The notes beneath the pieces are model-generated. The model worked only from the letters and a program-made list of their open reading frames with translations, searched no databases and was not told the origin of the DNA. From NCBI RefSeq assembly GCF_026967935.1, contig NZ_JAPVBL010000006.1, forward strand, positions 1 through 64,000: 64,000 nt of DNA, given 5' to 3'. This document shows positions 6,311-48,379 of the stretch, piece by piece (positions within the stretch are counted from its first letter, which is position 1; every line of letters begins with the position of its first letter). Position numbers and translations under genes: made by a program. This stretch comes from Modestobacter sp. VKM Ac-2982 (GTDB lineage Bacteria; Actinomycetota; Actinomycetes; Mycobacteriales; Geodermatophilaceae).

Positions 6311-6317
6311 CCCCGCC

Positions 6318-7202: not shown

Positions 7203-7203
7203 C

Positions 7204-9021: not shown

Positions 9022-9042
9022 GCGGCACCTCTCATCATTTCG

Positions 9043-9061: not shown

Positions 9062-9083
9062 GAATACAGGTAGCGTGCTCGCC

Positions 9084-9731: not shown

Positions 9732-9781
9732 GGACCCGGCCGCGGGAACCATCGGTCCCCCGCCCGCGCCGACGCCGCGGC

Positions 9782-9871: not shown

Positions 9872-9903
9872 CCCCCTGACCGCGACACCCCGGTACGGCG
9901 TTT

Positions 9904-9934
9904 CTTGACTAGTTCAAGGAAGGCAGGCCAGGAT
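9904..9934 (+). promoter_or_regulatory. furA-katG promoter with Fur-box-like palindrome
   Basis: A -35 TTGACT (9905-9910) is followed 18 bases later by CAGGAT (9929-9934), which ends six bases before the GTG start of furA, so the transcript is probably leaderless. CTTGA (9904-9908) and TCAAG (9914-9918) form an inverted repeat overlapping the -35 box. Mycobacterial furA promoters have the same TCTTGACT-type element bound by FurA, so autoregulation is likely. Confidence 0.72.
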
Positions 9935-9940
9935 CACCTC

Positions 9941-10417
9941 GTGCCCGACGCCGCCTCGCTCGAACGAGAACTGCGCGCCGTCGGTCTCCGGGTCACCCGC
10001 CCGCGTCTGGCGGTCCTGGACGCCGTGCACGCCCACCCGCACCTGGACACCGATGCCCTCATCGACGCCGCGCGCACCCGCCTGGACGCGGTCTCCCACC
10101 AGGCGGTCTACGACGTCCTGCGGGTGCTCACCGACCGCGGCCTCGTCCGGCGCATCCAGCCGCAGGGATCGGTCGCCCGCTACGAGGCGCGCGTCGACGA
10201 CAACCACCACCACCTGGTCTGCCGGTCCTGCGGCGCCATCAGCGACGTCGACTGCGCCACCGGCGCGGCGCCGTGCCTGACGCCGTCCGGTGACGCCCCG
10301 ACCGGCTTCGTCGTCGACGAGGCCGAGGTCATCTACTGGGGCCGGTGCCTCTCCTGCGCCACCGCACCGGCCATTCCGTCCACCACCGAACGTCCCGCAG
10401 AGAGAGGCACTCCATGA
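9941..10417 (+). CDS. furA: Fur family regulator (FurA/CatR type)
   Basis: A 158-residue protein with an N-terminal winged helix ([43 protein letters not shown]) and a C-terminal dimerisation/metal domain with the [11 protein letters not shown] block and later CLSC. It senses peroxide or iron and represses katG in actinobacteria. Position, promoter and the ATGA overlap with katG (10414-10417) all identify the furA-katG operon. GTG 9941 is favoured by the leaderless promoter six bases upstream. Confidence 0.93.
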
Positions 10418-12675: not shown

Positions 12676-12686
12676 CCGTCCCCACC

Positions 12687-12725
12687 CGGACGCCCCGGTC
12701 CGCCTCGTGCGGGCCGGGGCGTCCG
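12687..12725 (+). terminator. Hairpin terminator after katG
   Basis: A 17-bp stem with one G-U pair (CGGACGCCCCGGTCCGC ... GCGGGCCGGGGCGTCCG) and a CTCGT loop. Nearly the same hairpin is repeated after the sensor kinase at 15660-15702. It can serve katG and, in reverse, the PepSY gene. Confidence 0.82.
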
Positions 12726-12776
12726 CGCAGGTGCGGGGGCCGATCTCGGTCGGCTCGGCCCCGCGAGCCACGGACG

Positions 12777-13316
12777 TCAGTCGTCGTCGTTCTGGACGGC
12801 GGTGACGGTGAGGTCCCGGTCGAGGGCCACCTCGACGACCGTGCCGTCGTCGAGCTGCACCTCGGCCTCGTAGCCGGTGTCGCCGTCGTCGGCGATCTCG
12901 ACCTCGGTGACCGTGCCGCCGCCGGCCGCCTCCAGGGCAGCAGCAGCGGCCTCGTCACGATCGCGGCCGGTGACCTGCTCATCGGGCTCGTCGCCGTCGG
13001 ACTCGTCGCCGTCACGCTCGTCGCCGAGCACGGTGAAGTCCTCGTCGAGGTGGACGTCGACCTCTCCGCCGTCCCCGAGGGTGACCTCGACCTCGTAGTG
13101 GCCCTCCTCGTCGCCGACCTCGCTGTCGGTGACCGCACCTCCGCCGACGTGGGCGAGCGCGGCCTCACTGGCCTGCTCGAGGGCGTTGCCGGTGAGGGCG
13201 ACGTCCGGGCGGTCGTCCCCCTCGCCGGCGTCGACGGCCAGGGCGACGCCGCCGCCGCCGACCAGCAGCGCCAGGCCTGCGCCGCCACCGATGATCCACC
13301 GGGTGCTGTTCTTCAT
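12777..13316 (-). CDS. PepSY domain-containing exported protein
   Basis: A 179-residue protein with an excellent ribosome binding site (AGGAGGAG before ATG 13316). An N-terminal hydrophobic segment (about 8-28) is a signal peptide or anchor. Two PepSY repeats follow ([19 protein letters not shown]... and [18 protein letters not shown]...), separated by an Asp-rich linker ([11 protein letters not shown]). PepSY domains are extracytoplasmic and thought to inhibit peptidases or modulate sensor kinases. The gene is divergent from a response regulator/kinase pair with shared 11-bp-spaced repeats, so it is a likely target and possibly an accessory of that system. The acidic residues could bind cations. 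Confidence 0.88.
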
Positions 13317-13376
13317 GTCTCCTCCTGGGGTCTGTGGCAGCCCCTCCACCGGGGCATGGCCCGAGTGTCGACCGGA

Positions 13377-13427
13377 CCAGCTGAGGCGACCCTGAGAGCA
13401 GACCAGCCCTCTCAGCTGGTTCTCAGC
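13377..13427. promoter_or_regulatory. Response-regulator binding sites in the pepSY / RR divergent promoter
   Basis: CTGAG occurs at 13381 and 13392, and CTCAG at 13411 and 13422: two head-to-tail pairs each spaced 11 bp, in opposite orientation. They also form a 9-bp inverted repeat (CCAGCTGAG 13377-13385 with CTCAGCTGG 13411-13419). Pairs with 11-bp spacing are the hallmark of OmpR-family dimers. Both divergent genes would be controlled. Confidence 0.68.
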
Positions 13428-13469
13428 ACCGACGTGGCAGAACAGGGACCAGCCGGCGAGAGGGTGGAC

Positions 13470-14143
<674 letters not shown>

Positions 14144-14147
<4 letters not shown>

Positions 14148-15532
14148 GCGTCGGCCGGCCGGCCGGCCTGGCCGGGTGGGCACGGCGACGCTCGCTGCGT
14201 GCACGGCTGACCGCAGCGGCGGTGGCGGTCGTCGCCGCTGCCCTCTCGCTGTCCGCGGCGCTGCTGGTCATCCGAGTGGAGTCGGCGCTGGTGGCCGGCG
14301 TCGACGCCGCCGCCCGCGACCGGGCCGAGCGCGTCGCCACAGCGATCGGCTCCGGCCGGTCGGCTGCGTCGGTGCTCACCGCGGACGTCGTCGTCGACGA
14401 CGAGGTCGTCCAGGTGCTCGACGGGGACCGAGCCGTGCTGGCCTCCTCCGTCGGACGCCCGGGTGGGCGCCCCCTGCTGACGGCTCCGGCGGGCACCGGC
14501 CCGGAGGCGGTCACCCAGGACGGACTGGCCCTGTCCGGCGAGCAGGACGAGCCGTACCGCGTGCTCAGCCTCCCGGTCCGCGCACCGGACGGGCAGCGGG
14601 TCCTCGTCCAGGTCGGGTTGCCGCTGGACGATGCCGAGGACAGCGTCGAGGAGCTGACCTCGGCACTCACCGTGGGCGTACCGGCGGTGGTCGCCGTCCT
14701 CGCCGTCCTGACGTGGCTGCTGGCCGGGCGGGCGCTGCGCCCGGTGGAGGCGCTGCGTCGGGAGGCCGCCGACATCCCCGGCGACGCACTCGATCGACGG
14801 CTCGCCGTCCCCGCCGGCGGCGACGAGCTCGCCCGGCTGGCCACCACCTTCAACGCGCTGCTCGGTCGGGCGGAGGACGCGACCCGACGGCAGCGGGAGT
14901 TCGTCGCCGACGCCGCCCACGAGATCCGGAGTCCGCTGGCCTCCCTGCGCACCCAGCTGGAGGTCGCCGCACTGCACGACGACCCGTCGTGGCGGGAGCA
15001 GCTCCCCGCGCTGACCGAGGACGCGCAGCGCCTGTCCCGGCTGGTCGACGACCTCCTCCGGCTCGCCCGGATCGACGCCCGCGTCCCGCTCGCCCGCGAC
15101 GAGGTCGACCTCGACGACCTCGTGCTGGAGACGGCGGAGCGCATCCGTCGGCACACCACGCGGCACGTGGACACGTCCGCGGTCTCCGCTGCCCGGGTCA
15201 CCGGAGACCGGGACGCGCTCGCGCGCGTCGTGCAGAACCTGCTCGACAACGCGCTGAGGCATGCCCGCACCACCGTGTCCGTCTCCCTGATCGCGACCCA
15301 CCAGGCGCTGCTCACCGTCCGCGACGACGGTCCGGGCATCCCCGTCGACCAGCGCGAACGGGTGTTCGACCGGTTCACCCGCCTCGACGACGCCCGCAGT
15401 CGCGACGTCGGCGGGACCGGACTCGGGCTGGCGATCGTCCGCGACGTCGTCCGGCAGCACGGCGGCGACGTCGTCGTCGAGGACGCCGCCCCGGGCGCCC
15501 GGCTGGTCGTCCGACTCCCGCTCACCGGCTGA
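14144..15532 (+). CDS. Sensor histidine kinase (HAMP-HisKA-HATPase)
   Basis: A 462-residue membrane kinase. TM1 is at about 25-45 (after RRRSLRARL). An extracytoplasmic sensor of about 130 residues follows, then TM2 at about 175-195 ([17 protein letters not shown]) and HAMP. HisKA has phospho-acceptor H259 ([16 protein letters not shown]); the HATPase has N ([10 protein letters not shown]), G1 (DDGPGIP) and G2 ([10 protein letters not shown]) boxes. It pairs with the preceding response regulator through an ATGA overlap. The extracellular sensor has no recognisable domain; with the metal-linked genes downstream, a metal or envelope signal is plausible but unproven. Confidence 0.93.
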
Positions 15533-35613: not shown

Positions 35614-36471
35614 GTGCCCACAGACCTCGGCAGCGATGCCTCCGCGGTGACCTGCGTGGTGGCCAGCCGCAACCGCCGCGACGACCTGCTGGCCAGCCTC
35701 CCCCGACACGAGGCCCCGGTGGTGCTGGTCGACAACGCCTCCACCGACGACACGGTGGCCGCGGTCCGGGCTGCACACCCGGAGGTCACCGTCGTCCCCC
35801 TGGACCGCAACACCGGCGCCGTCGCCCGCACCGTCGGCGTCGCCCGGGCGGGCACGCCGTTCGTGGCCTTCACCGACGACGACTCCTGGTGGGCGCCGGG
35901 CGACCTGGCGCGCGGGGTCGAGATCATGCGCGCGCACCCGCGGCTGGGGCTGCTGGCCGCCCGGATCCTGGTGGGCTCCGCCGAGGAGCTCGACCCGGTC
36001 TGCACCGAGATGGCCGACAGCCCGCTGGGCACCGAGCCCGACCTGCCGGGCCCGTCGCTGCTCGGGTTCGTCGCCTGCGCCGCACTGGTGCGCACCGATG
36101 CGTTCACCGCCGTCGGCGGCTTCGACCGGGTCGTGCGCTTCCCCGGCGAGGAGGAGCGGCTGGCGCTGGACCTGGCGGCGGCCGGCTGGGGCCTGGCCTA
36201 CGTCGACCAGGTCACCGTGCACCACCACCCCTCCACCCACCGGGAGGCCAGCAGCGCCCGGCAGGCGGGCATCTGGCGCAGCCGGGTCCTCACCGCGCTC
36301 ATGCGCTACCCGCTGCGCGACGTCGCCGGCCAGCTGGTCCGGGTGGTGCGCGCCGGGCGCCCGGGCTGGCGGGGGCTCGCCGGGGCGGTCCCCCGGGTCC
36401 CCGCCGCCCTGCGGAACCGGCGGGTGCTCCCCCGGCACGTGATGGCCGGGGTCCGGGAGCTGGCGGCATGA
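35614..36471 (+). CDS. Family 2 glycosyltransferase
   Basis: A 285-residue GT-A enzyme. The nucleotide-sugar fold shows TCVVASRNRRDDLLASL, VLVDNASTDDTVAAV and the metal-binding DDD of AFTDDDSWW. The acceptor part has AALVRTDAFTAVGGFD and the ED-like EEERLALDLAAAGW. The tail is basic and amphipathic (RVVRAGRPGWRGLAG). A longer start (TTG 35581) is possible, but GTG 35614 has a -10 six bases upstream. It is followed by a similar GT2 with an ATGA overlap. Confidence 0.9.
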   Translation: MPTDLGSDASAVTCVVASRNRRDDLLASLPRHEAPVVLVDNASTDDTVAAVRAAHPEVTVVPLDRNTGAVARTVGVARAGTPFVAFTDDDSWWAPGDLARGVEIMRAHPRLGLLAARILVGSAEELDPVCTEMADSPLGTEPDLPGPSLLGFVACAALVRTDAFTAVGGFDRVVRFPGEEERLALDLAAAGWGLAYVDQVTVHHHPSTHREASSARQAGIWRSRVLTALMRYPLRDVAGQLVRVVRAGRPGWRGLAGAVPRVPAALRNRRVLPRHVMAGVRELAA

Positions 36472-37394
36472 CGAGCGGAGCCACGACCGGAGCCGGTGCG
36501 CCCGACCCACGCGTCGCCGTCGTCGTCATCACCCACGACCGCCGGGAGGAGCTGCTGCTGGCGCTGTCCCGGCTGCGGGAGCTGCCCGAGCAGCCACAGG
36601 TGGTCGTCGTGGACAACGGCTCGACCGACGGCACCGCCGAGGCGATCCGCACCCGGCACCCGTGGGTCGAGCTGATCGCCAGCCCGGAGAACCTGGGCGC
36701 GGTCGGCCGCAACCTCGGTGTGGCCCGGTTGGACACCCCGTACGTCGCCTTCTGCGACGACGACACCTGGTGGGACCCGGGTTCGCTGCGCACCGCCGCC
36801 GACGCGCTCGACGCCCACTCCCGGCTGGCCGTCGTCACCGCCCGGATCCTGGTCGAGCCCGGCGGCATCGAGGACCCGATCGTCGCCGAGCTGCGCGACT
36901 CCCCGGTCGTCGGCGCCGACTGGCTGCCCGGGCCGGCGCTGGGCAGCTTCCTGGCCGGTGCCAGCGTGCTGCGGCGGGAGGCGTTCACCGAGGTCGGCGG
37001 CTTCTCCGAGCGGCTGTGGCTGGGCGGGGAGGAGGAGCTGATGGCCGGTGACCTGGCCGCGGCCGGCTGGGAGCTCTGCTACCTGCCCACGATCGCGATC
37101 CACCACCAGGCCAGCACCGCCCGCGACCCGCACAAGCGCAGGCAGGACGGCATTCGCAACACGCTCTGGACGACGTGGCTCCGCCGCCCGTTCCGGCCCG
37201 CGCTGCGACGCACCGTGCACCTGCTGCGCACCGTCCCCCGCGACCGGGTCACCGCCCGGGGGCTGCTCGCCGCCGTCCGCGGGCTGCCCTGGGTGCTGCG
37301 TGAGCGACGGGTGCTCCCGCCACACGCGGAGGCGCGGTTCGCCGCTCTGGAGAACGCCCAGCGCAGCTCCACCGCGCGCCGCTACGTGAGCTGA
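36468..37394 (+). CDS. Family 2 glycosyltransferase (paralogue of the preceding gene)
   Basis: A 308-residue GT-A enzyme sharing most motifs with its neighbour: VAVVVITHDRREELLLAL, VVVDNGSTDGTAEAI, ENLGAVGRNLGVARL, AFCDDDTWWDPGSL and GASVLRREAFTEVGGFSERLWLGGEEELMAGDLAAAGW. The pair probably arose by tandem duplication and adds successive sugars. It ends the coupled cluster. The TPM gene is convergent, 23 bases downstream. Confidence 0.92.
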   Translation: MTSGATTGAGAPDPRVAVVVITHDRREELLLALSRLRELPEQPQVVVVDNGSTDGTAEAIRTRHPWVELIASPENLGAVGRNLGVARLDTPYVAFCDDDTWWDPGSLRTAADALDAHSRLAVVTARILVEPGGIEDPIVAELRDSPVVGADWLPGPALGSFLAGASVLRREAFTEVGGFSERLWLGGEEELMAGDLAAAGWELCYLPTIAIHHQASTARDPHKRRQDGIRNTLWTTWLRRPFRPALRRTVHLLRTVPRDRVTARGLLAAVRGLPWVLRERRVLPPHAEARFAALENAQRSSTARRYVS

Positions 37395-37417: not shown

Positions 37418-38026
37418 TCAGCTCTGCCGGGCCGGCTCGGTCTCGGGCTCGTGGTCCTCCGGGGAGCCCCGCCGGGAGACGAGGTAGAAGGCGGTCAGCA
37501 CGCCGGCGAGGACCACCACGACCACGGCGGTCCTCGTCGCCGACCACGACGGCATGGCCGGGTCGACGACGTCGGTGGACTGCAGTCCGTCGGCCAGCGC
37601 CACCACCGCGCCGGACCAGTCGCCCTCGACGATCGCGGGCTCGACGTCCTCGCTCATCAGGGTCTCGACGGCCTCCGGCTGCAGCGTCGACTCGTCCCCG
37701 ACCCACCACTCGTACTCGGCCTCGTCGGTCGCGACGGCCAGCAGCACCTCCTCGTCGCCGAGCTCGGACTCCATCGCGGTCAGCTCGGCCCAGTCGGCGT
37801 CGTCCTCCTCGCCGTCGAAGGAGGGGACGAAGACGGCGGACAGGTCGATCCCGGTCTGGGCGCGCAGTTCGGCCACGGCCTCCTCGGCTGCCGCGGCGTC
37901 CGCCCCGAGCACGCCGGCCTCGTCGGTGATCGGTGTATCGAGCGCGACCGGCTGCGCTGCCATCGCCGTCCCTGCGGGCAGCAGCCCGGTGATCAGGAGG
38001 ACCAACAACGCGATTCGCGTGCGCAC
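37418..38026 (-). CDS. TPM-domain exported membrane protein
   Basis: A protein of about 202 residues with a signal peptide (ALLVLLITGLLPAGTAMAA). One TPM domain follows (ITDEAGVLGADAAAAEEAVAEL, GIDLSAVFVPSFDGE, DEEVLLAVATDEAEYEWWVG), then a C-terminal membrane helix (AVVVVVLAGVLTAFYLV) and an acidic tail. TPM proteins have been linked to photosystem II repair in plants and are abundant, with unclear function, in actinobacterial envelopes. GTG 38026 gives proper spacing to AGAGGAA; the further-upstream GTG 38032 abuts it. Confidence 0.82.
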   Translation of the reverse strand: MRTRIALLVLLITGLLPAGTAMAAQPVALDTPITDEAGVLGADAAAAEEAVAELRAQTGIDLSAVFVPSFDGEEDDADWAELTAMESELGDEEVLLAVATDEAEYEWWVGDESTLQPEAVETLMSEDVEPAIVEGDWSGAVVALADGLQSTDVVDPAMPSWSATRTAVVVVVLAGVLTAFYLVSRRGSPEDHEPETEPARQS

Positions 38027-38032
38027 ACACAC

Positions 38033-38261
38033 TTCCTCTGGATAGACGGCCGGACGTCGTCGGTGGGGCGACGGCTCCGGCGCGGCTCAGGCACCGGGTG
38101 GCCGAACAGATCGCACACCTCCTAGCGATCATGTTCGCTCATGAAGTGCGCCGCACCGGGAGGCGGACCATTCTGTCGACACGCGGACTGGCCGCGCAAT
38201 TGCGTCAGGGACCACTCACAGCTGGTGAGCAGAATGGTCGGAGAATTGTGTTCCTGTTCAC
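38033..38261. other. AT-richer intergenic region between TPM and phosphopantetheinyl transferase genes
   Basis: No gene is convincing here. A perfect 10-bp inverted repeat, GACCATTCTG (38166-38175) and CAGAATGGTC (38230-38239), is separated by 54 bases. Inside lies CTCAC-AGCTG-GTGAG (38215-38229). TCATG...CATGA occurs near 38130. It serves as the TPM promoter region and the end of the PPTase transcript. The composition is less GC-rich than the surroundings. Confidence 0.5.
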
Positions 38262-38981
38262 TCAGCGCCCGACTGCGGCTCCAGCGGCGGCCACGTCGGC
38301 CAGCGCGCGGACGACAGGCGCACCCGCACCGGCGACCGCGACCAGCGCCTCCCGCGCCGGGTCGCACCAGTCGGTGAGGTACAGCCCGCGGTACCGGCTC
38401 ACCGCCCGCCCGGCCCGGTCACGGCGCTCGGCCAGCCGGGACAGGTCGACCCGCCCCATCCCGGCCAGCGTCGTCGTCCCGGCCTTCACCAGGCACTCCT
38501 TGCGCGCCCAGTGCCGGAGGGCGAGCAGTGACGGGTCCACCGCCGACCGGACCTGCTGCTGCTCGGCCGGCGCCAGCCCGGGGAACCCGCCGGCTGCGGC
38601 GGCAGCCACCGGGAACCCCTCGACATCCACGCCCACCGGGCGCCAGGCGGCGGCGGCCACCACCGCACCCCGACTGTGGGACCAGCTGACGTGCACGCCG
38701 GGGACGTCCGCGAGGGACGGGCGCCCGTGCCCGGCCGTCCTGCAGTCGGCGCACCACTGGTGCACCGCCAGGCCCGCCAGGGGCCGCCCGGTCAGCGCCG
38801 CAGCGCACCGGCGCACGAGCAGGTGCGCGGCGACGTAGGCGGCCCGATCGGCGGGGTCCTGGAGCGCGGCGCTGCGGGCCCGTTCAGCAACGCCGAGCAG
38901 GCCGACGTCGGCATCGGCGAGGACCTCGTCCGGGCTGGCCACCACGACCAACGGCGCTCGACGCAGGCTCGTGCGCACCAT
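38262..38981 (-). CDS. Sfp-type 4'-phosphopantetheinyl transferase
   Basis: A 239-residue enzyme that transfers phosphopantetheine from CoA to a carrier-protein serine. Diagnostic motifs: VHVSWSHSRGAVV (residues 97-108), VGVDVE (D119, E121, the Mg2+ ligands) and WARKECLVKAG (K161, E162, K166). Size and spacing fit the Sfp/two-ACPS-domain class serving non-ribosomal peptide synthetases. It faces the Pls-type synthetase across a 245-base divergent region, so it most likely primes S587 of that enzyme. GGAGGG precedes ATG 38981. The N-terminal 50 residues are Ala-rich. Confidence 0.92.
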   Translation of the reverse strand: MVRTSLRRAPLVVVASPDEVLADADVGLLGVAERARSAALQDPADRAAYVAAHLLVRRCAAALTGRPLAGLAVHQWCADCRTAGHGRPSLADVPGVHVSWSHSRGAVVAAAAWRPVGVDVEGFPVAAAAAGGFPGLAPAEQQQVRSAVDPSLLALRHWARKECLVKAGTTTLAGMGRVDLSRLAERRDRAGRAVSRYRGLYLTDWCDPAREALVAVAGAGAPVVRALADVAAAGAAVGR

Positions 38982-39226
38982 CCCAGCCCTCCGACCCCTC
39001 GACCGGGCAGCCAGCCCAACTCCTCACTCAACGGAGTCGGTTGACCGCAACGGGAATTTGTTCGTCATTTTTGGTTTGCGCATTTCTCAACGGAGAGCAT
39101 TCACTCGAACACAGTCCGTGAAAGTTGAACAAAGATCTGTGAGTTGACCCAGAACGGGTGGCATGACCCCGTGTTTCTCCTTAGCGTCGGCCGTGGTTCC
39201 TGATTGTCAACTGTGAGAGCGAGTTC
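38982..39226. promoter_or_regulatory. Divergent promoter region of PPTase and pls with repeated TCAAC/GTTGA elements
   Basis: This is a notably AT-rich stretch. The decamer CTCAACGGAG occurs at 39027 and 39086. The pentamer TCAAC or its complement occurs at 39028, 39040, 39088, 39124, 39143 and 39207. TAGCGT at 39182-39187 could be the -10 for pls, leaving a leader of about 35 bases, with GAGAG before ATG 39227. Repeats like these are candidate sites for a regulator; none can be named. Confidence 0.5.
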
Positions 39227-42200
39227 ATGTCGACGGAGAGCGAGAGCCAGGACTTCATCCCGGGCTTCACCACCCCCAGGGACGCGGGAGTCGACTCCGT
39301 CACCCGACGCTTCTCGTTCTCCGAGAACGTCGCGGGTGCTCCACCTCGACCGCAGCAGGACACCACCCGGCTGTCCCAGTTCTTCGAGCGGACGTGTGAC
39401 GAGCACCCCTCGTCCACGGCGCTGGAGTGCGACGGCGAGCGGCTGAGCTACGCCGACCTCGACCAGCGGGCCAACCGGCTGGCGCACCACCTGCTCGGGC
39501 TCGGCATCCGGTCCGGCGTCCGGGTGGGGATCCTGCTGGACCGCTCGGTCAACACCTACGTCGCCCTGCTCGCCGTGACGAAGACGGAGGCGACCTTCGT
39601 CCCGATCGACCCGGCTGCCCCGGCCGACCGGGTGCAGTTCCAGGCCGAGGACTCCGATCTCGCGCTGGTGGTCACCACCACCTCGTTCGCCGCCACCTGC
39701 AGCGGGCTCCCCTGCCCGCCGCTGTTCCTGGACGAACTGGGCGGCGACCTCGCGGCCGCCCCGAGCTGGCGACCCGACCTGGAGACCAGTGGCGACCCGG
39801 TCTGCTACGTCATCTACACCTCGGGCTCCAGCGGCCGTCCCAAGGGCGTGGAGATCGCCCAGTCGAGCATCTGCAACTTCATCGGCATCGTCCCGGTGCT
39901 GTACGGCGTCGAGCCGACCGACCGGGTCTACCAGGGCATGACGATCGCCTTCGACTTCTCCATCGAGGAGATCTGGCCGACCTGGGCCGTGGGCGCGACC
40001 CTCGTCGCCGGTCCCACGGACGGGCGCCGGGTGGGCTCCGGGCTGGCCGACTTCCTGGCCGAGCAGGAGATCACGATGATCTACTGCGTCCCCACCGTGC
40101 TCGCCACGCTCGACCGCACCCTCCCGCTGATCCGCACGGTGAACGTCGGCGGCGAGGCCTGCCCGCGGGAGCTCGTCGACCGCTGGGGTCCCGGTCGTCG
40201 CATCCTCAACACCTACGGCCCGACGGAGACCACCGTCACCTGCACGATGGCCGAGCTCTACCCCGGCAAGCCGGTGACGATCGGGCGGCCGCTGCCGACC
40301 TACCGCGTCACCCTGCTGGACGACGAGCGCCGGCCGGTCGGCAACGGTGAGATCGGCGAGATCTGCGTCGGCGGGCCCGGCGTTGCGCTCGGTTACGTCA
40401 ACCGGCCCGACCTGACGGCCGACCGCTTCCTGCCCGACCCGCACGGCTACCCCGGTGAGCGGCTGTACCGCACCGGTGACCTGGGTCGCTTCCTCCCCGA
40501 CGGCGAGCTGGAGTACCTCGGCCGCGCCGACAGCGAGGTGAAGGTCCGCGGCCACCGCGTCGACCTCCAGGAGATCGAGGGGATGCTCCTGCAGCACGAC
40601 CGGGTCACCGCCGCGGTCGTCACGCTGCTGCCAGCGCCGGAGAGCGGCGGCGAGCTCGCCGCCTACGTGATCCCCCGCCCCGGGGACGACGCCGCAGACC
40701 TGGTCGCCGAGCTGCACGACCTGCTCCTCGAGCAGCTGCCGCCCTACATGGTCCCGGCCTTCCTCGACGTCGTCTCCACCATCCCGATGCTGCCGAGCGG
40801 CAAGGCCGACCGGAAGGCGCTGCCCGAACCGCAGGGCCCGCGCCTGATGCGCGACACCGGGGCCTACGTGCCGCCGGACACCCCCGTCGAGGCCTGGGTG
40901 GCCGGGATCTGGGAGGAGGCGTTCGGCCTGCCGGGCGGTTCGGTGTCGGTCGAGGCAAACTTCTTCGACGCGCTCGGTGGTCACTCGCTGCTCGCCGCAC
41001 GGATCATCTCCACGATGCGCTCCAGCGACCTGGGTGCCGGGTTGTCCATCCTCGAGCTCTACCGGCACCCGACGGTCCGGTCCCTCGCCGCGCACCTGGA
41101 GGACGACGCCCGGTCCGGCGACGCGGTCGCCGAGCCGCACCTGCGCCGCCCGGTGCAGTCCTCCCGCCGCCGGGTCGCGACCTTCGGGTCGGCCCAGTTC
41201 GCCACCTTCTACGGCATCGTCCTGCTGTTCCTGTTCCCGGCCGCGCTGGTCTACGCGCTGAACGACGGGGAGCCCTCGGCCGCACTTGTCGTCCAGCTGG
41301 CCCTCGCCCTGCCCGCGTTCTTCCTCGTCGTCCGCTGGGCGCTCCCGGTGGTCGGCTCACGGCTGTTGTCGCGAGGACTGCAGCCCGGTGACCACCCGCT
41401 GTGGAGCTGGACCCACCTCCGGGTCTGGACCGTGCAGAAGCTGATGGTGATCTCCCCGCTGACGGTCCTGAGCGGATCCCCGTGGGCGGCCACCTACCTG
41501 CGCCTGGCCGGGGCACGGATCGACGACGACTGCCACATCGGGACGTCGGAGATCAGCCTCCCGGCGATGCTGGACATCGGCCCGGGCGCGACCCTCGGCT
41601 ACGGCACCCAGTTGCACGGCCACCGGGTCGCCGACGGCGTCCTCTCCCTCGGCGTCGTCTCCGTGGGCGCCCACGCGACCCTCGGCTCGCAGTCGCTGCT
41701 GGAGGCCGGCTCGGCGGTCGAGGACGGCGGCGTCCTCCGGGAGCAGTCGCTGCTGCCCGCCGGCGAGATCGTCCCCGCCGGTGCGACCTGGGCCGGTTCG
41801 CCGGCTCGTGCCTCGACCGAGCCGGCCGACCCGGTCCTCGGGTTGATGACCAGCTGCACGGCTGCACCCACCACCTGGACGCGTCAGCTGCGGACCGGTT
41901 TCGCCGCCGGCATCGCGCTCCTGGAGCTGCTGCCCTTCTTCGTGCTGCTCCCCGTGGTCGCGCTGGTGTGGTGGGTGCTGCTGACCTTCGGGCTGGGCGC
42001 TGCCCTCCTCGCCACCGCGCTCTCCGGCCCGGTCTTCGTGGCAGCCTCGTGCGCGCTCATCCTGGGCTGCCGCCGGCTGGCCCTGACGGAGACGCCGCCC
42101 GGCGTGCACCACGTGCGCTCCAAGCTCGGGCTGGAGAAGTGGCTGGGCGACAAGCTGCTGGAGATGAGCCTGATGCTCAACAACAGCATGTACGCGACGC

Positions 42201-43381
42201 TCTACACCTCCATCTGGCTGCGGGCGATGGGGACCAAGGTCGGCCGTGGCGCCGAGGTCTCCACCATCGCGAACATCGACCCCGACCTGCTCACCCTGGG
42301 CGAGGGCAGCTTCGTGGCGGACATGGCCAGCGTCGGCAGCGCCACCTACGCCAACGGGCACGTGGCCTTCCAGGTCACCGAGGTCGGTGCCCGCGCCTTC
42401 GTCGGGAACGCCGCCTACATCCCGTCGGGTTCACACCTGGGCGACGGCTCGCTGATCGGCGTCCGGAGCGTGCCGCCGACCGGAGGCGTGCCGGCGGACA
42501 GCTCGTGGCTCGGCTCCCCGCCGATCAACCTGCCGCGCCGGGAGATGTACGAGGAGTACACCGAGGCGGAGACCTTCACGCCCAGCCGCCGTCGGGTGCG
42601 CGCCCGGTACGCGATCGAGTTCCTGCGGATCGTGCTGCCGAGCTCGATCCTGGCCCTGGCGATGTTCGGCACGCTGTACGGCGCCTCGGTCCTCGCGGCC
42701 AACCAGGGCGTGCTCGTCACCGTGCTGGTCGCGCCGCTGATCGCGCTGCTCTCCAGCCTCGCCGTCGTGGTGGGGGTCGCGGTGCTCAAGTGGGTCCTCG
42801 TCGGCCGGTACCAGCCGCGGGTGGAGCCGCTGTGGAGCGGCTTCGTGCGCCGGACCGAGTTCGTCACCGGCATCTACGAGGCGGCTGCCGTCCCGGCGCT
42901 GCTGACCTGGCTGACCGGGACACCGCTGCTCGGCCCGCTGCTGCGGCTCTACGGGGCGAAGATCGGCCGGCGGACCCTGATCGACACCACCTACCTCACC
43001 GAGTTCGACCTGGTGACCCTGGGCGACGACGTCTCCGTGGGCACCAACGCCTCCCTGCAGACCCACCTGTTCGAGGACCGGGTCATGAAGATGGACCACG
43101 TCATCGTCCGGGACCGGGCGAGCGTCGGGGACAAGTCCGTCGTCCTCTACGGCTCCACCGTGGAGGAGGACGCCACCATCGCCGACCTCTCCTTGGTCAT
43201 GAAGGGCGAGGTGCTGCCCGCCGGCACCGCGTGGAGCGGCATCCCCGCCCAGAAGGTGGGCCGCGCACCGGCCAGCACGCTGCCGCTCCGGGACGACCCG
43301 GCGCTCGACAGCCCGGCGGTCGACAACCCGACCACCGAGAGCCGGCAGCTCAGCACCGCGTCGAACAGCCGGGAGGTGTGA
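39227..43381 (+). CDS. pls: Pls/PosA-type membrane non-ribosomal peptide synthetase (homopoly(amino acid) synthetase)
   Basis: A 1384-residue single-module enzyme. The adenylation domain spans about 50-545 (YTSGSSGRPKGVE from 197, FDFSIEEIW, NTYGPTETT, YRTGDLGR, GHRVDLQEIE, PSGKADRKALP). The thiolation domain is at about 555-625, with GGHSLLAAR and carrier S587. Three pairs of membrane helices (about 657-707, 890-946, 1134-1190) alternate with three left-handed beta-helix domains (about 770-865, 1000-1110, 1240-1355). There is no classical condensation or thioesterase domain. This is the architecture of Streptomyces epsilon-poly-L-lysine synthetase, in which the tandem C-terminal domains form isopeptide bonds iteratively. 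By-eye alignment to GrsA gives pocket residues D243 and E247 (positions 235 and 239), consistent with a basic amino acid. The polymer identity is unproven. Confidence 0.92.
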   Translation: MSTESESQDFIPGFTTPRDAGVDSVTRRFSFSENVAGAPPRPQQDTTRLSQFFERTCDEHPSSTALECDGERLSYADLDQRANRLAHHLLGLGIRSGVRVGILLDRSVNTYVALLAVTKTEATFVPIDPAAPADRVQFQAEDSDLALVVTTTSFAATCSGLPCPPLFLDELGGDLAAAPSWRPDLETSGDPVCYVIYTSGSSGRPKGVEIAQSSICNFIGIVPVLYGVEPTDRVYQGMTIAFDFSIEEIWPTWAVGATLVAGPTDGRRVGSGLADFLAEQEITMIYCVPTVLATLDRTLPLIRTVNVGGEACPRELVDRWGPGRRILNTYGPTETTVTCTMAELYPGKPVTIGRPLPTYRVTLLDDERRPVGNGEIGEICVGGPGVALGYVNRPDLTADRFLPDPHGYPGERLYRTGDLGRFLPDGELEYLGRADSEVKVRGHRVDLQEIEGMLLQHDRVTAAVVTLLPAPESGGELAAYVIPRPGDDAADLVAELHDLLLEQLPPYMVPAFLDVVSTIPMLPSGKADRKALPEPQGPRLMRDTGAYVPPDTPVEAWVAGIWEEAFGLPGGSVSVEANFFDALGGHSLLAARIISTMRSSDLGAGLSILELYRHPTVRSLAAHLEDDARSGDAVAEPHLRRPVQSSRRRVATFGSAQFATFYGIVLLFLFPAALVYALNDGEPSAALVVQLALALPAFFLVVRWALPVVGSRLLSRGLQPGDHPLWSWTHLRVWTVQKLMVISPLTVLSGSPWAATYLRLAGARIDDDCHIGTSEISLPAMLDIGPGATLGYGTQLHGHRVADGVLSLGVVSVGAHATLGSQSLLEAGSAVEDGGVLREQSLLPAGEIVPAGATWAGSPARASTEPADPVLGLMTSCTAAPTTWTRQLRTGFAAGIALLELLPFFVLLPVVALVWWVLLTFGLGAALLATALSGPVFVAASCALILGCRRLALTETPPGVHHVRSKLGLEKWLGDKLLEMSLMLNNSMYATLYTSIWLRAMGTKVGRGAEVSTIANIDPDLLTLGEGSFVADMASVGSATYANGHVAFQVTEVGARAFVGNAAYIPSGSHLGDGSLIGVRSVPPTGGVPADSSWLGSPPINLPRREMYEEYTEAETFTPSRRRVRARYAIEFLRIVLPSSILALAMFGTLYGASVLAANQGVLVTVLVAPLIALLSSLAVVVGVAVLKWVLVGRYQPRVEPLWSGFVRRTEFVTGIYEAAAVPALLTWLTGTPLLGPLLRLYGAKIGRRTLIDTTYLTEFDLVTLGDDVSVGTNASLQTHLFEDRVMKMDHVIVRDRASVGDKSVVLYGSTVEEDATIADLSLVMKGEVLPAGTAWSGIPAQKVGRAPASTLPLRDDPALDSPAVDNPTTESRQLSTASNSREV

Positions 43382-43383
43382 CC

Positions 43384-44718
43384 GTGTCCCAGACCAGCGA
43401 GCACCAGAACATCGTGGCTCCGCTGCCCCCGGAGCCCGGTGCCACCGTGGCGGCACTGCCGCACAGCTGCGCACCGGCCGGCGACGTCGCCGGCACCCCA
43501 GCCGAGGACACTCCGGCGAAGGCGGCACCCCGGCGCCCGCGCACACGACTGATCGGGATCGACGCCGCCCGCGGCGTCGCCCTGGTGGGCATGATGTCGG
43601 TGCACCTGATCCCCGCGGCCACCGACGACGGCGGCGTGTCGTGGGCGTGGCTGCTCTCCAACGGCAAGGCCTCCGCGCTGTTCGCCCTGCTCGCCGGCGT
43701 CGGCATCGCCTTCTCCACCGGTCGGCGCCGTCCGCCCCGCGGCCTCGCCTGGCGGGCCGGTGCGCTGTCCCTGCTGACCAGGGCCGTGATCATCGCGGCG
43801 ATCGGCCTCGCGCTCGGGTACGTCGTCGGCACCGGCGACGCCGCGGTGATCCTGGCGTACTACGGCGTGCTCTTCGCCCTGGCCATCCCGTTCCTGCGGC
43901 TGTCGACCCGCGGGCTGGTGGTGGCGGCGACGATCGCCGCGCTGGTCATGCCGCTGGTCAGCTATGCGCTGCGACTGGAGCTGACGCCGGTCCCAGAGGC
44001 CAACCCGACGCTGACCGACCTGGTCACCGACCCGCTGGGGCTGCTGCTCCAGCTGACCCTCACCGGGGTGTTCCCCGCCCTGGTCTGGATCGCCTACCTG
44101 CTGGCCGGCATGGCCGTGGGCCGGGCGGTGCTCGCCTCGCGGCGGGTCGTCGGCCAGATCACGCTGCTCGGCCTGGCGCTCGCCCTGGCGTCCAGCCTGC
44201 TGTCGATGCTGCTGCTGACCGTCGGCGGCCGGGGTGACCTCCTCCGCGCGGACGCGGTGCAGACCATGGACTTCGAGCTCTACCAGGAGACCCTGACCTG
44301 GGGCCCGTCGGGGACGACGCCGACCAACAGCCCGTGGTGGCTGGTCGCCACGGCGCCGCACAGCGGCAGCCCGCTGGACCTCGCCTTCACCATCGGGGTG
44401 GCGCTGGCCGTGCTGGGCGCGTGCCTGCTGCTCGGCCGGGGCCTGCAGCCGCTGCTGCGCCCGCTGGCCGCCGGCGGCAGCATGACGCTGACCCTCTACA
44501 GCGTCCACCTGCTGCTGGTGGCCGCACCGTTCCCCCGCGGCGTGCTGAACCTGGTCGTGCAGGTCGTCCTGCTGCTGACCTTCGCCCTGGTCTGGAACCG
44601 CAGCCACCTGCGCGGGCCGCTGGAGGAGCTGGTCTGGCGGGCGACCGACGCCGTGCGCCGGAAGGTGATGGGCTCACCGGGAGCGCACCGGGCGCCGGCC
44701 ACCACGGCCGGCAGCTGA
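43384..44718 (+). CDS. Polytopic acyltransferase-like membrane protein (HGSNAT/DUF1624-DUF418 type)
   Basis: A 444-residue protein. A cytosolic Pro/Ala-rich N-terminus of about 55 residues leads into RLIGIDAARGVALVGMMSVHLIP, the signature first helix of the heparan-alpha-glucosaminide N-acetyltransferase/YeiB superfamily. About ten membrane helices follow, with LLSNGKASALFALLAGVGIAF and SMTLTLYSVHLLLV. Such proteins move acetyl groups across membranes onto amines or sugars. GTG 43384 follows GGGAGG and lies 3 bases from the pls stop; GTG 43378 would overlap it. Co-expression suggests modification or export-linked handling of the Pls product (inference). Confidence 0.82.
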   Translation: MSQTSEHQNIVAPLPPEPGATVAALPHSCAPAGDVAGTPAEDTPAKAAPRRPRTRLIGIDAARGVALVGMMSVHLIPAATDDGGVSWAWLLSNGKASALFALLAGVGIAFSTGRRRPPRGLAWRAGALSLLTRAVIIAAIGLALGYVVGTGDAAVILAYYGVLFALAIPFLRLSTRGLVVAATIAALVMPLVSYALRLELTPVPEANPTLTDLVTDPLGLLLQLTLTGVFPALVWIAYLLAGMAVGRAVLASRRVVGQITLLGLALALASSLLSMLLLTVGGRGDLLRADAVQTMDFELYQETLTWGPSGTTPTNSPWWLVATAPHSGSPLDLAFTIGVALAVLGACLLLGRGLQPLLRPLAAGGSMTLTLYSVHLLLVAAPFPRGVLNLVVQVVLLLTFALVWNRSHLRGPLEELVWRATDAVRRKVMGSPGAHRAPATTAGS

Positions 44719-44720
44719 GC

Positions 44721-45440
44721 ATGTTCGGGCGGGGCGGCTTCGGGCGGGGCGGTGACCGGCGGCTGGCGCTGGTCTACCGGGGCCCGGCCTCCACGGACGG
44801 CTGCCCGGAGGCGGTGGCGGGTGCGCTGGCGCGGAGCCGGTGGGACCTCGACGTCCGCTTCGTCGGGCCCAAGGAGCAGCTCGCTCTGGAGCCGGCGGTG
44901 CTCGCCTCCGCCGTGCTCTACGCCCAGCCCGGCGGCGGTGAGCTGAAGAAGGCCTGGCGCAAGCTCCGCAAGCAGGCGCCGGCGATCCAGGAGTACGTCG
45001 CCGGCGGCGGCCGCTACCTGGGCTTCTGCCTCGGCGGGTACCTCGCCGGGGAGACCCCCGGCTTCGGGCTCCTGCCCGGGGACGCCGACCAGTTCGTCTC
45101 CTCCCCCGGGGCGTGGCCGACCCACACCGACGACGCGGTGGCCACGGTGATCTGGGACGGCCACCGCCGGGAGGTGTTCTTCCAGGACGGCGCCTGGTTC
45201 GACCTCGATCCGGCCCGCGGGCCGGCCGAGGTGCTGGCCACCTACGAGAACGGGCTGCCCGCGGCCGTGGTCGCGCCCTTCGGCGCCGGCGCGGTCGGCG
45301 TCGTCGGGCCGCATCCCGAGGCGACGCCGGACTGGTTCACCGACGTCGGACTGCCCGTGCCCGCGGACCTGCGGGCCGACCTCACCCAGGACCTCGTCGA
45401 CCGGGTGATGCGGATCGGTCAGGTCACCCCGACCCGCTGA
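44721..45440 (+). CDS. BPL_N domain protein (class I glutamine-amidotransferase-like)
   Basis: A 239-residue protein. The fold is that of the N-terminal domain of eukaryotic biotin-protein ligases: LALVYRGPASTDGCPEAVAGAL, VLYAQPGGGELKKAWRKL, a nucleophile-elbow-like YLGFCLGGYLAG with Cys, and GVVGPHPEATPDWF holding His and Glu. It resembles a triad hydrolase or amidotransferase without its synthetase partner. It starts 2 bases after the membrane acyltransferase stop, so it is the third gene of the pls operon. A role in releasing or hydrolysing amide products is possible; nothing shows it. A large terminator follows. Confidence 0.8.
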   Translation: MFGRGGFGRGGDRRLALVYRGPASTDGCPEAVAGALARSRWDLDVRFVGPKEQLALEPAVLASAVLYAQPGGGELKKAWRKLRKQAPAIQEYVAGGGRYLGFCLGGYLAGETPGFGLLPGDADQFVSSPGAWPTHTDDAVATVIWDGHRREVFFQDGAWFDLDPARGPAEVLATYENGLPAAVVAPFGAGAVGVVGPHPEATPDWFTDVGLPVPADLRADLTQDLVDRVMRIGQVTPTR

Positions 45441-45441
45441 A

Positions 45442-45491
45442 CACCGCAGGCCGCCGTGCGGAGCTCGCGCTCCGCACGGCGGCCTGCGGTG
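45442..45491 (+). terminator. Very long hairpin ending the pls operon
   Basis: A perfect 23-bp stem begins CACCGCAGGCCGCCGTGCGG with a TCGC loop and starts 1 base after the BPL_N stop. It lies between convergent genes and probably terminates both. Confidence 0.92.
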
Positions 45492-45513
45492 CGGGATGGT
45501 CCCGCGGTCGACG

Positions 45514-46677
45514 TCAGCCCTCGTCGAGGAAGCCGGCGACGATCGTGCCGAACTGACCGCCCCGATCGTGGCCCACCCCGGCCGGGGCGACGAGCCGGGT
45601 GTTGAGGCCCTGAGCCGAGTACCACTGCTGCCCGGCCTGCGCGCCGTAGGGCCCGGAGAGCGCGTTGAACCCGCCGCCGGCGCCGGTGTCCTGGGCGCCG
45701 GTGTCCCAGCGCAGGGCGACCTTGCCCTTGACGTCGGCGGGGATGCTGGCCCGAGCCGCCGGTGCGCCACCGCCACCGATCGCGATGACCCCGCCGCCGC
45801 CGGACCAGAGCGCCGGGTGGGCAGGGAAGACGAAGCGAGTCGCCGCCTGCGCACCCGAGGAGTAGCCGGCGAACCAGAGCTCACCGGCGCCGTACTGGGC
45901 CTTCGCGTCGGCGATCAGCGCCGCCAGGTACTTCGCGTACCCGGCGGCGTCCCCCCGCTCCCAGCACTGGCAGGAGCGGTTGGGGCTGAACGGCGCCACG
46001 AGCACCATGTTGCGCTCCCGGGCCACCGCGGCCAGCCCCTTCGACCCGCCGATGGCATAGGACTGGGTCGGGTTCTCGATGCCGTACTCGCCGGTGCCGT
46101 CGGCGTACACCAGCAGGCCGATCGGCTTCGCCGGGTCGATGCCCTCGGCGAAGACCCGGTAGTCCGCGGTGTAGCCCGCGGCGCTGAAGGACGTCGTCCG
46201 GTTGGTCAGGGTCGCCGTGGGCGCCGTGCGGACCGGGGTGCTGGCGACCGGAGCCGGGGCCGGTGCCGGAGCCGGTGTCGGTGCCGGCGCGGGAGCTGGC
46301 GCGGGAGCCGGGGTGCTGGCGACGGGGGCGGGCGCCGGGGCCGGAGCCGGGGAGGGGGCCGGAGCCGGGGAGGGGGCCGGAGCCGGGGCGGCCGTCGTGG
46401 GAGCCGGCGCCTGGGTGCGCTGACGGGCCCGGTCGGCGCGCCGAGGGGCCTTGTCGGCCCGGACCGCGTTCAGCTCGACCGCGGTCTCTGCCTGCGGCTG
46501 CTCACTGCTCGCCGGCGAAGCGGCGGGCGCGGTGTCCGCGACGTTGGTGGCGCCGAAGACGGCGCTCACGCACAGGAAGGCGGCGGCCACGCCGGCGCGG
46601 GCGCGCCGACCCTGGCGGGAGGAGAGGGCGGACAGGAAGCGGCGGCCATGGCCACTCCGGGTGTGACGTCTGGACAA
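45514..46677 (-). CDS. Secreted alpha/beta-hydrolase with Pro/Ala linker
   Basis: A 387-residue protein. I propose a TTG start at 46677 because GGAGGGG lies eight bases upstream and the translated N-terminus then reads as a twin-basic signal peptide (RRARAGVAAAFLCVSAVFG). A PAPAPAP linker (about 80-150) leads to an esterase-like domain with YRVFAEGIDPAKPIGLLVYADG, nucleophile elbow GYSSGAQAA and a C-terminal GHDRGG histidine. A disulfide-capable SCQCW lies between. It resembles PHB-depolymerase/feruloyl-esterase type enzymes; substrate unknown. It is convergent with the pls operon. Confidence 0.8.
   Translation of the reverse strand: MSRRHTRSGHGRRFLSALSSRQGRRARAGVAAAFLCVSAVFGATNVADTAPAASPASSEQPQAETAVELNAVRADKAPRRADRARQRTQAPAPTTAAPAPAPSPAPAPSPAPAPAPAPVASTPAPAPAPAPAPTPAPAPAPAPVASTPVRTAPTATLTNRTTSFSAAGYTADYRVFAEGIDPAKPIGLLVYADGTGEYGIENPTQSYAIGGSKGLAAVARERNMVLVAPFSPNRSCQCWERGDAAGYAKYLAALIADAKAQYGAGELWFAGYSSGAQAATRFVFPAHPALWSGGGGVIAIGGGGAPAARASIPADVKGKVALRWDTGAQDTGAGGGFNALSGPYGAQAGQQWYSAQGLNTRLVAPAGVGHDRGGQFGTIVAGFLDEG
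46245..46400 (-). repeat. Low-complexity GGAGCCGGGGCCGG-type repeat (PAPAP linker)
   Basis: Tandem short GC repeats encode the alternating Pro/Ala linker of the hydrolase. They include two copies of a PVAST block (near 46245 and 46310). Prone to length variation. Confidence 0.7.
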
Positions 46678-46939
46678 GAAGAGACCCCTCCGAGCGTCCG
46701 CCACACGAGTGCGGACGGTTGCGGTGATTACGGAACTGATCGTTACACGCACTTTGTGCATCCGTAAGGTCACGCTCGGTTCACAGTTGGCTCATTCGTC
46801 ACACCCGTCACGCCCACCCCGGCCGTCGGTGTGCCCGACCCCACCGACTGCCGAGGACCGCAGGTTGGCACCCGTTGCGCACAACCGGGACGATGGACGG
46901 CGGCGGGAGTACCCCGTCGTCCATCTCGGAAGGGCAGTG
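46678..46939. other. Divergent intergenic region between hydrolase and M1 peptidase
   Basis: 262 bases, AT-richer around 46720-46800. On the minus strand TAACGAT (near 46738) may be a -10 for the hydrolase. No clear operator or riboswitch structure was identified. Confidence 0.4.
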
Positions 46940-48379
46940 ATGCGCGCGGGTCGTCGACGGGCCGCGGCCGCTGCGCTCGTCGGGGCCGTGCTCCTCGCCG
47001 GCTGCACGACGGGCGGCTCGCCCGATCCGGAGCCCTCGCCCACCGCCGCCCCGGAGGCCGAGGGCTGGGCCGAGCCGTGGGCCGACCGGCCGGTGGTCGA
47101 CCTGCGCTTCGACGTCGCCGAGGACCTGGAGACGGTCGCCGGCGAGGAGCGGGTGGTCTTCACCCCCGACCTCAACACCTGCGTGCTGGTCTTCCGCTCC
47201 TGGCCCAACAAGCCGGCCACCGCGCGGGCGGGCAGCGGGCTGACGGTGTCCGAGGTGCGGGTCGACGGCGAACCGGCCGAGGCGCGCGACGTGCCGGCCG
47301 GGGCACCCGAGAGCGCGCCCGCCGGCACGCTGCTGGAGGTGCCGCTGGCCGAGTGCGCCGAACCCGGCGACGAGATCACCGTCGACCTCGAGTTCGAGGT
47401 GGAGCTCGGTCCGGACGTCAACGAGCGGGTCGGCACCTCCACCGCCGTCGACGCCGCCTGGTTCGCCACCGCCTTCCCGCTGCTGGCCTGGGAGCGCGGG
47501 CGTGGCTGGGACCGCAGCCCGGGCGTGGCCGTCGCCGGGGAGATGGCGGTGAGCGAGGACTTCGAGCTGGCCTCGCTGGAGGTGGTCGCGGACTCCCGGT
47601 ACGAGGTGCTCGGCACCGGCGAGCCGGTCGGCACCTCCGACGGCCCCGGCGACACCACGGTGCACGAGCTCACCGCCCCCTCGGTGCGGGACGTCGCGGT
47701 CACCGTCGGGGAGCTGGACGTGCAGTCGGCCGAGATCGGCGGCGTCCGGGTCCACGTGGGCCTGGACGAGGGCGTGGAGGAGGCGACCGCAGCAGAGTGG
47801 CTGGCCCAGCTCGAGACGTCGATGGCGTCCCTCGTCGAGCTGCTGGGCCCCTTCCCCTACGACGACCTGTGGGTCTCGGTGCTGTCCAGCCAGACCAGCG
47901 GCATCGAGTTCCCCGGCGCGATCCAGTTCGGCGACGTCGACCCGGACTTCCGTCGGGCGCTGGTGACCCACGAGCTGGCGCACATGTGGCTCTACGGCCT
48001 GGTGGGCAACAACCAGGGCGTGCACCCCTGGCTGGACGAGTCGTTCGCGACCTTCGCGCAGATGGTCGTGCACGGCGAGGGCTCGGCCAGCATGGCCGAC
48101 CTGCCCGGGTCCCGCCGACACGGGGTGGGCGAGCCGATCCAGTACTGGGAGCAGTTCCGGCGGCCCAGCTCCGCCTACTACGACACCGTCTACATCGTCG
48201 GCGGGACGACCCTGGTGGACGCCCGGGCCCAGGTGGGCGCCGAGGCGTTCGACGCAGCGCTGCAGGAGTACCTGCGCGCCAACGCCTGGTCGATCGCCAC
48301 GCCGGACGACGTCCAGGAGGCCTTCGCCGAGCTGCCCGAGGTGCTCGACGAGCTCGAGGAGGTCGGTGCGCTGCCCTGA
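46940..48379 (+). CDS. M1 family zinc metallopeptidase lipoprotein
   Basis: A 479-residue lipoprotein (lipobox LLAGC near residue 25). An N-terminal beta-rich domain (about 45-260) precedes the catalytic domain with the zinc motif H344-ELA-H348 and E367, exactly 18 residues after H348 (gluzincin HExxH-18-E). The usual GAMEN exopeptidase motif is replaced by IEFPGAIQFGD. M1 enzymes trim N-terminal residues from peptides; here it would act on the outer face of the membrane. AAGGGC precedes ATG 46940. Confidence 0.9.
   Translation: MRAGRRRAAAAALVGAVLLAGCTTGGSPDPEPSPTAAPEAEGWAEPWADRPVVDLRFDVAEDLETVAGEERVVFTPDLNTCVLVFRSWPNKPATARAGSGLTVSEVRVDGEPAEARDVPAGAPESAPAGTLLEVPLAECAEPGDEITVDLEFEVELGPDVNERVGTSTAVDAAWFATAFPLLAWERGRGWDRSPGVAVAGEMAVSEDFELASLEVVADSRYEVLGTGEPVGTSDGPGDTTVHELTAPSVRDVAVTVGELDVQSAEIGGVRVHVGLDEGVEEATAAEWLAQLETSMASLVELLGPFPYDDLWVSVLSSQTSGIEFPGAIQFGDVDPDFRRALVTHELAHMWLYGLVGNNQGVHPWLDESFATFAQMVVHGEGSASMADLPGSRRHGVGEPIQYWEQFRRPSSAYYDTVYIVGGTTLVDARAQVGAEAFDAALQEYLRANAWSIATPDDVQEAFAELPEVLDELEEVGALP

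Follow-up and report, generated by a model that had tools for sequence, protein, structure and literature searches.

A Pls/PosA-family synthetase locus with a membrane acyltransferase and a BPL_N protein in Modestobacter: a candidate pathway for a cationic amino acid homopolymer

A gene group between positions 37418 and 48379 of a 64,000-nt stretch of Modestobacter sp. VKM Ac-2982 (contig NZ_JAPVBL010000006.1; the whole stretch is called the window and all coordinates are window positions) looks built for making a chain of one repeated cationic amino acid, with helper proteins that may modify, release and destroy that chain. Its central gene encodes a full-length single-module synthetase of the Pls/PosA family (Pls), which, judging from its sequence, belongs to a separate actinobacterial clade of the family. 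The locus was read as a homopolymer pathway of this clade, including the roles proposed below for the monomer, the membrane acyltransferase (TmAT), the BPL_N protein and the M1-peptidase-like lipoprotein, with a probability of roughly 0.6; that it carries out Pls-type polymer synthesis is very probable. Cationic homopolymers are in use as food preservatives and are studied as antimicrobials. The enzyme family is known, and the gene set and product of this clade were not found described in open-access PMC articles, the search not being exhaustive; the first-pass annotation of this DNA likewise knew of no described system with these genes. The part of the reading taken from sequence comprises the single-module Pls, a divergent gene for a phosphopantetheinyl transferase (PPTase), an operon with a TmAT-fold acyltransferase and an amidotransferase-fold Cys protein, and then the M1 lipoprotein. 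The features are as follows.

37418-38032, minus strand: TPM-domain membrane protein at the cassette flank (PF04536, 56.5 bits; tblastn match in 12 of the 78 loci described below, in Geodermatophilaceae only)
38262-38981, minus strand: Sfp/ACPS-type PPTase, divergent from Pls (PF01648, ACPS, 28.4 bits, cut-off 25; motifs GVDVE and WARKECLVK)
39227-43381, plus strand: Pls/PosA-family synthetase of 1384 aa with adenylation (A), thiolation (T) and transmembrane (TM)/beta-helix parts (TIGR02353, 569.4 bits; pocket DFEYNGTVTK; clade position)
43384-44718, plus strand: TmAT/HGSNAT-type membrane acyltransferase with a DxxRx10H motif and a GTG start (HGSNAT_cat, 40.1 bits, cut-off 22)
44721-45440, plus strand: BPL_N protein of class I glutamine amidotransferase fold with Cys103, His198 and Glu200 (PF09825, 51.4 bits, cut-off 24.2)
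45442-45491, no strand: perfect 23-bp inverted repeat with a 4-nt loop (arms 45442-45464 and 45469-45491), convergent genes on either side
45514-46773, minus strand: GYSSG protein, probably secreted, belonging to the cassette in this lineage only (start codon uncertain; tblastn match in 12 of 78 loci, all Geodermatophilaceae)
46940-48379, plus strand: M1-peptidase-like lipoprotein with LAGC lipobox and HELAH motif (PF01433, 41.8 bits on 46907-48379)

In Pls, matches to AMP-binding (residues 53-390), AMP-binding_C (449-526) and PP-binding (557-624), with an LGGHS carrier-serine motif at 583, precede a C-terminal membrane/beta-helix domain that matches TIGR02353 at 673-1341 with 569.4 bits, against a curated cut-off of 423.1. 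No Condensation or thioesterase (TE) match was found in Pfam at E 0.001. All the features by which membership of the Pls/PosA family was judged were thus present: A and T domains with the carrier serine, TIGR02353 above its cut-off, no condensation or TE domain, and Asp and Glu at positions 1 and 3 of the adenylation pocket code. The one-module layout given in the first-pass annotation was therefore borne out by Pfam and TIGR02353. Its three TM pairs fit the three hydrophobic groups that simple hydropathy gave in the C-terminal half (about 660-702, a wide peak at 896-914, and 1129-1184), a method that does not separate the individual helices. Its likening of the protein to epsilon-poly-L-lysine synthetase stands for the Pls type. 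However, the epsilon-polylysine identity was rejected both by the pocket, which has Phe and not Ala at code position 2 (DFEYNGTVTK vs DAESIGTVV(K)), and by the tree. In that quick tree of 76 rows, 36 of them with DFEY pockets (SH-aLRT support only, midpoint root), the window Pls fell outside the canonical epsilon-polylysine clade: a group of 37 rows (SH-aLRT 97) was made up of 34 BPL_N-linked rows plus loci L077, L078 and L224, the last on a long branch, and the remaining rows, 28 of canonical type and 11 of other kinds, lay outside it. A long-branch warning was flagged for L224 and L225.

Pfam and NCBIfam matches confirmed the four genes first annotated (divergent PPTase, Pls, HGSNAT_cat and BPL_N proteins) at their coordinates. 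The reading of an operon that includes both downstream genes was also supported. The gaps, reported as 3 and 2 bases, are 2 bases between Pls and TmAT and 2 between TmAT and BPL_N. Comparison of loci extended the conserved cassette beyond these four genes to 37418-48379, so that the M1 peptidase is included. The hairpin 3' of BPL_N that had been called a terminator is perfect, but its terminator role is unproven, as a T run is missing and the terminator scan gave nothing there.

Linkage of the genes was examined within the host family. Among 112 family genomes, BPL_N was matched in 20, of which 19 matches were strong (E 1.2e-103 or lower) and one (G071, E 1.9e-4) was set aside. Pls and TmAT adjoin BPL_N in 18 of these 19 genomes (the window and 17 others); in the 19th (G089, locus L105) 184 bases of contig remain on the upstream side of the TmAT match, and the end of a Pls can be read in them. 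The order of a divergent PPTase, Pls, acyltransferase and BPL_N was the same in all 17 other family loci holding Pls and BPL_N, with the PPTase adjoining Pls in each. Twelve of the 13 Geodermatophilaceae loci among the BPL_N-picked loci described below contain all of TPM, PPTase, Pls, TmAT, BPL_N, GYSSG protein and M1, and the 13th (L105) is cut. The family holds 42 Pls proteins above the cut-off. Twenty of them score 544.6-597.5 bits, 18 of these with BPL_N and all 20 with TmAT adjoining; none of the remaining 22, with scores of 635.9-766.3 bits, has BPL_N in its vicinity. Twenty regions of 13.5-20 kb, analysed with a simple gene caller that overlooked some genes, show different outer genes around the cassette. 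The closest named relatives of the locus are Modestobacter. Upstream of the cassette, at 35668-37394, lie two adjoining GT2-family glycosyltransferase genes, and members of the first gene's cluster are also present in L061, L063, L064, L065 and L074. A split Pls was also observed in the family, at L084 (G057:C18:42000-61999, 4169-14836; similar in L081-L083): a three-carrier and TM protein is followed by a separate A-T protein (pockets beginning DIWQ), with the SbnA and SbnB genes for synthesis of 2,3-diaminopropionate (Dap), TmAT and PPTase nearby. From its sequence it looks like a two-protein Dap polymer synthetase, and 13 of the 16 places in the family where SbnA (Dap synthase) exceeds its cut-off adjoin such a split Pls.

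Across Actinomycetota, linkage was followed with a profile built from ten BPL_N proteins; it gave 139 relatives, and the best 80 of the 139 were kept, representing 78 loci. Since these loci were picked by BPL_N, they cannot show the constancy of BPL_N itself. Within up to 10 kb on each side, tblastn matched the C-terminal part of Pls in 73 loci, the A domain in 70, TmAT in 48, M1 in 31, PPTase in 14, and the GYSSG and TPM proteins in 12 each; profiles with a 5-kb limit from BPL_N found Pls in 72, TmAT in 47, M1 in 36, an arginine-dihydrolase-like protein in 15 and PPTase in 8. The gene-neighbour check that had been set beforehand, whether Pls is linked to these genes in other genomes, was thus answered in favour of linkage (73 of 78). 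Five loci were without Pls; in four of them (L113, L156, L169, L170) the contig starts less than 0.6 kb upstream of BPL_N, and the fifth is weighed below. In 71 of 72 scored loci (the exception is L114), BPL_N lies downstream of Pls in the same orientation. Where it comes directly after Pls, in 42 loci, 24 have a candidate BPL_N start codon in a 4-nt overlap with the Pls stop. The content recurs while the order shifts: Pls-BPL_N-M1 in 14 of the 78 loci, Pls-TmAT-BPL_N-M1 in 12, Pls-BPL_N-TmAT in 11, and Pls-arginine-dihydrolase-like-BPL_N-TmAT in 11. One locus, L131, was omitted from alignment A2 for an in-frame stop. Streptomyces pinistramenti has both kinds of Pls as same-strand neighbours at L137 (5946-14859), one of BPL_N type and one of epsilon-polylysine type (DAESIGTVVK).

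In a class sample of 394 genomes, BPL_N was matched in 14, 11 of them strongly (E 5e-62 or lower). Of the 11, seven adjoin Pls; in G482 BPL_N lies where the contig ends, and in G336, G438 and G470 the 14-20 kb read contain no Pls. Since 105 of the 394 genomes gave a Pls at E 1e-60 or better, only a minority of Pls systems are of the BPL_N type; as no more than two candidates were scored in each genome, a third Pls could escape. No BPL_N or TmAT match was found in 30 class-sample Pls loci with 1.5-kb flanks. M1 profile matches adjoin 25 of 26 canonical-clade Pls loci with that flank and none of four of the other clade.

A mechanism was proposed for the cassette. By family membership, the PPTase would arm the carrier domain of Pls, and Pls would activate a short-chain diamino acid (2,4-diaminobutyrate, Dab; Dap; or ornithine, Orn), join it iteratively via the side-chain amines and extrude the chain. 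The other steps are suggested by fold, residues and position. TmAT would take the acyl group (probably acetyl) of acyl-CoA in the cytosol and transfer it to free amines on the chain as it emerges outside. BPL_N would act in the cytosol on the synthetase-bound or new chain, most likely in hydrolytic or ammonia-dependent release because Pls has no TE domain. The M1 lipoprotein, which probably starts at 46940 with its lipobox, would cut chains returning to the membrane, as PldII does for epsilon-polylysine. As in the first-pass annotation, the downstream proteins are proposed to modify (for example N-acetylate), release or export the polymer. Acylation of the polymer by TmAT has close to even odds, and release or amidation of the chain by BPL_N is a tentative proposal, on the unlikely side. 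Precedent for the last gene was found in the epsilon-polylysine operon of Streptomyces, where a single-module membrane synthetase is likewise followed by an external peptidase gene (PMC9223678, PMC8117764); PldII is coupled to pls, lies outside the membrane and is protective (PMC9223678).

Because PDB sequence searches were uninformative (one chance-level match, E 0.06, for TmAT and no match for BPL_N), fold searches were run for both proteins. Fold search and alignment gave TmAT an HGSNAT-type fold with DxxR in the first TM helix (TM1), which places it in the TmAT superfamily. An invariant TM1 His of the AT3-type DxxRx10H motif was present in 24 of 24 rows, at the position where HGSNAT has Asn (PMC12423673). 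The HGSNAT/YeiB-like partner announced earlier is thus right as to fold, but is not HGSNAT proper; 48 of the 78 loci gave a match to it. Modestobacter genomes also hold a further TmAT gene, with 55-57% identity, away from Pls (G000:C7:419310-420578, L079; G101:C3:187141-188427, L080). The BPL_N protein (239 aa) has a single Pfam match, covering 4-98 of the 283 profile positions, and no fused ligase domain, and so is not a biotin-protein ligase. Its fold and Cys-His-Glu triad are those of class I glutamine amidotransferases (Pdx2, HisH) and of BPL_N. However, it is free-standing, lacks the biotin ligase part, and has Tyr107 where many class I enzymes have Gln after GxCxG (GxCxGxQ motif). The GYSSG protein has no Pfam or NCBIfam match and may be alpha/beta-hydrolase-like, by motif only.

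The monomer was considered from the adenylation pocket. Code positions were assigned by the GrsA numbering; the canonical loci, reading Ala at position 2, agree with it. In all 68 readable loci of the 78, the pocket was D-F-E-[Y, rarely C/F]-x-G-T-V-T-K, with Asp and Glu retained at positions 1 and 3. Among 34 further loci, 30 were readable: 27 gave DAESIGTVV, two DFEYLGTVT (L226 and L227, with BPL_N) and one DFECLSAVT (L224, without BPL_N). It has been reported that in PosA, the delta-poly-L-ornithine synthetase of Acinetobacter, Asp and Glu at these positions bind the two amines, Glu at position 3 taking the side-chain amine, and that position 2 is tied to chain length, with Ala for Lys, Met for Orn and Phe for Dap or Dab (PMC10522769). 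By this rule, the Phe of the window Pls points to Dap or Dab, as in synthetases of poly-Dap (PDAP) and poly-Dab (PDAB), and not to the Ala or Met classes. PosA shares the TIGR02353 layout and seven of ten code letters, with the Asp, Glu and Thr contacts kept and Ser replaced by Thr, but has Met at position 2; its gene partners are not described in the part of that article at hand (PMC10522769). Thr at both positions 7 and 9 of the window Pls supplies the hydroxyls seen in PosA, a feature that is unspecific, as DFECLSTVTK of L096 has them too. Pocket likeness was rejected as proof of ornithine: seven letters are shared with PosA (DMEHNGTVSK), seven with L096 and six with DAESIGTVVK. Two findings were counted for Orn, namely the arginine-dihydrolase-like gene that profiles place in the operon in 15 of 78 loci, no more than 5 kb from BPL_N, and the absence of an over-cut-off Dap synthase or Dab transaminase from the window genome. 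On balance, Dab or Dap comes first but just short of even odds, Orn is a serious though less probable candidate, and another monomer is improbable. The Pls of L085 (G027:C50) and L096 (G057:C18:208000-227999), with pockets DFECLSVVTK and DFECLSTVTK, possibly make a Dab polymer, each having beside it an aminotransferase that resembles EctB but stays below the cut-off (361 and 359 bits); an M28 peptidase also lies beside Pls in L096.

Several points weigh against the proposed pathway. Phe at position 2 points to Dap or Dab, yet in the window genome none of the families searched for their synthesis exceeds its cut-off: the Dap synthase family TIGR03945 reached 254.8 vs 349.95 bits, EctB 145.6 vs 552.2 and Dat 130.7 vs 401.6. 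The EctB search is a weak test, because its cut-off was reached in none of 112 genomes despite clear EctB-like genes (332-361 bits) in seven; Dap or Dab could possibly be supplied by routes other than the SbnA, EctB or Dat families. The arginine-dihydrolase-like protein has AgrE (E 7.5e-32) and ArgZ (E 1.1e-31) as its best solved relatives. However, it stays below the NCBIfam cut-offs of all five families matched (the best, dimethylargininase, with 202 of 300 bits), and the HLD of ArgZ/AgrE reads DLD in 11 of 11 aligned rows. The His of the pentein HLD is catalytic. The activity of the protein is therefore doubtful. This in-operon arginine-dihydrolase/DDAH-like protein with Asp for the HLD His was observed at L124 (9087-9893) and in ten other loci of the same cluster. 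As to linkage, a BPL_N relative stands without Pls in L165 (Nocardia, 10 kb flank) and likewise in L221, L222 and L223, with no common neighbour among the 10 proteins scanned. No TmAT match was found in 30 of 78 loci, some cut by contig ends, so TmAT is not required everywhere. Within the clade, L224 has neither TmAT nor BPL_N, and L077 and L078 have TmAT but lack BPL_N and a PPTase match. Finally, the acyl acceptor of TmAT could be another surface molecule.

This last point leads to one of the alternatives, in which TmAT acylates a cell-surface glycan or lipid and so shields the producer from the cationic polymer, leaving the polymer itself untouched. It is rather unlikely, although sugars are the acceptors given for HGSNAT and GWT1 in the passages covered (PMC12423673) and the Modestobacter paralogues of TmAT lie away from Pls; that TmAT also follows the split Pls in L081-L084, which belongs to another clade, is compatible with polymer and surface roles. 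Doubtful to a like degree is a BPL_N that serves as an intracellular polymer hydrolase, in immunity or turnover, outside synthesis.

Still less likely is that the clade makes plain beta-poly-Dap (or gamma-poly-Dab) like the PDAP synthetase of S. albulus PD-1, as an unrecognised version of a known pathway with BPL_N and TmAT as passengers. PDAP/PDAB synthetases are reported to have Phe at position 2 (PMC10522769), S. albulus PD-1 makes both epsilon-polylysine and PDAP (PMC4668381), and its PDAP synthetase, compared by description, has the same layout (PMC4668381) and Phe at position 2 (PMC10522769). It counts 1445 codons, however, against 1384 in the window Pls, and no such partners are described in the part of the article at hand (PMC4668381). 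S. noursei A-2-1 has two Pls genes (E 1e-40 or better), with pockets DAESIGTVV and DFEYVGTVT. S. albulus and S. noursei are close kin. Identifying the S. noursei Pls as the PDAP synthetase by length failed, as it has 1420 codons at most, not 1445. Against plain PDAP or PDAB, no TIGR03945 match over cut-off was found in the window genome, in 17 of 19 family genomes with the locus, or in 20 of a further 30 genomes that carry it, S. noursei being one of the 20 (there are drafts among the 30), and most family Dap-synthase places (13 of 16) adjoin the different, split Pls. One strand, tight spacing and a recurring content in shuffled order would hardly persist among passengers.

The preferred reading remains a Pls/PosA-family homopolymer pathway. 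In its most specific form, which is improbable as it stands, BPL_N would be a trans-acting release factor (by hydrolysis, or by C-terminal amidation with glutamine ammonia) of a distinct Pls system, TmAT would acylate the chain outside, and the product would be an end-capped, partly acylated poly-isopeptide of tuned charge. The release step of Pls chains is described as unresolved (PMC4668381), and the locus gives two conserved candidate partners for the question of chain release and sizing; it also points to an actinobacterial Pls clade with a nearly constant pocket. If true, the release-factor reading of BPL_N would answer how Pls enzymes without a TE domain release and size their chains, and the end-capped, partly acylated poly-isopeptide would be a product that nobody has isolated.

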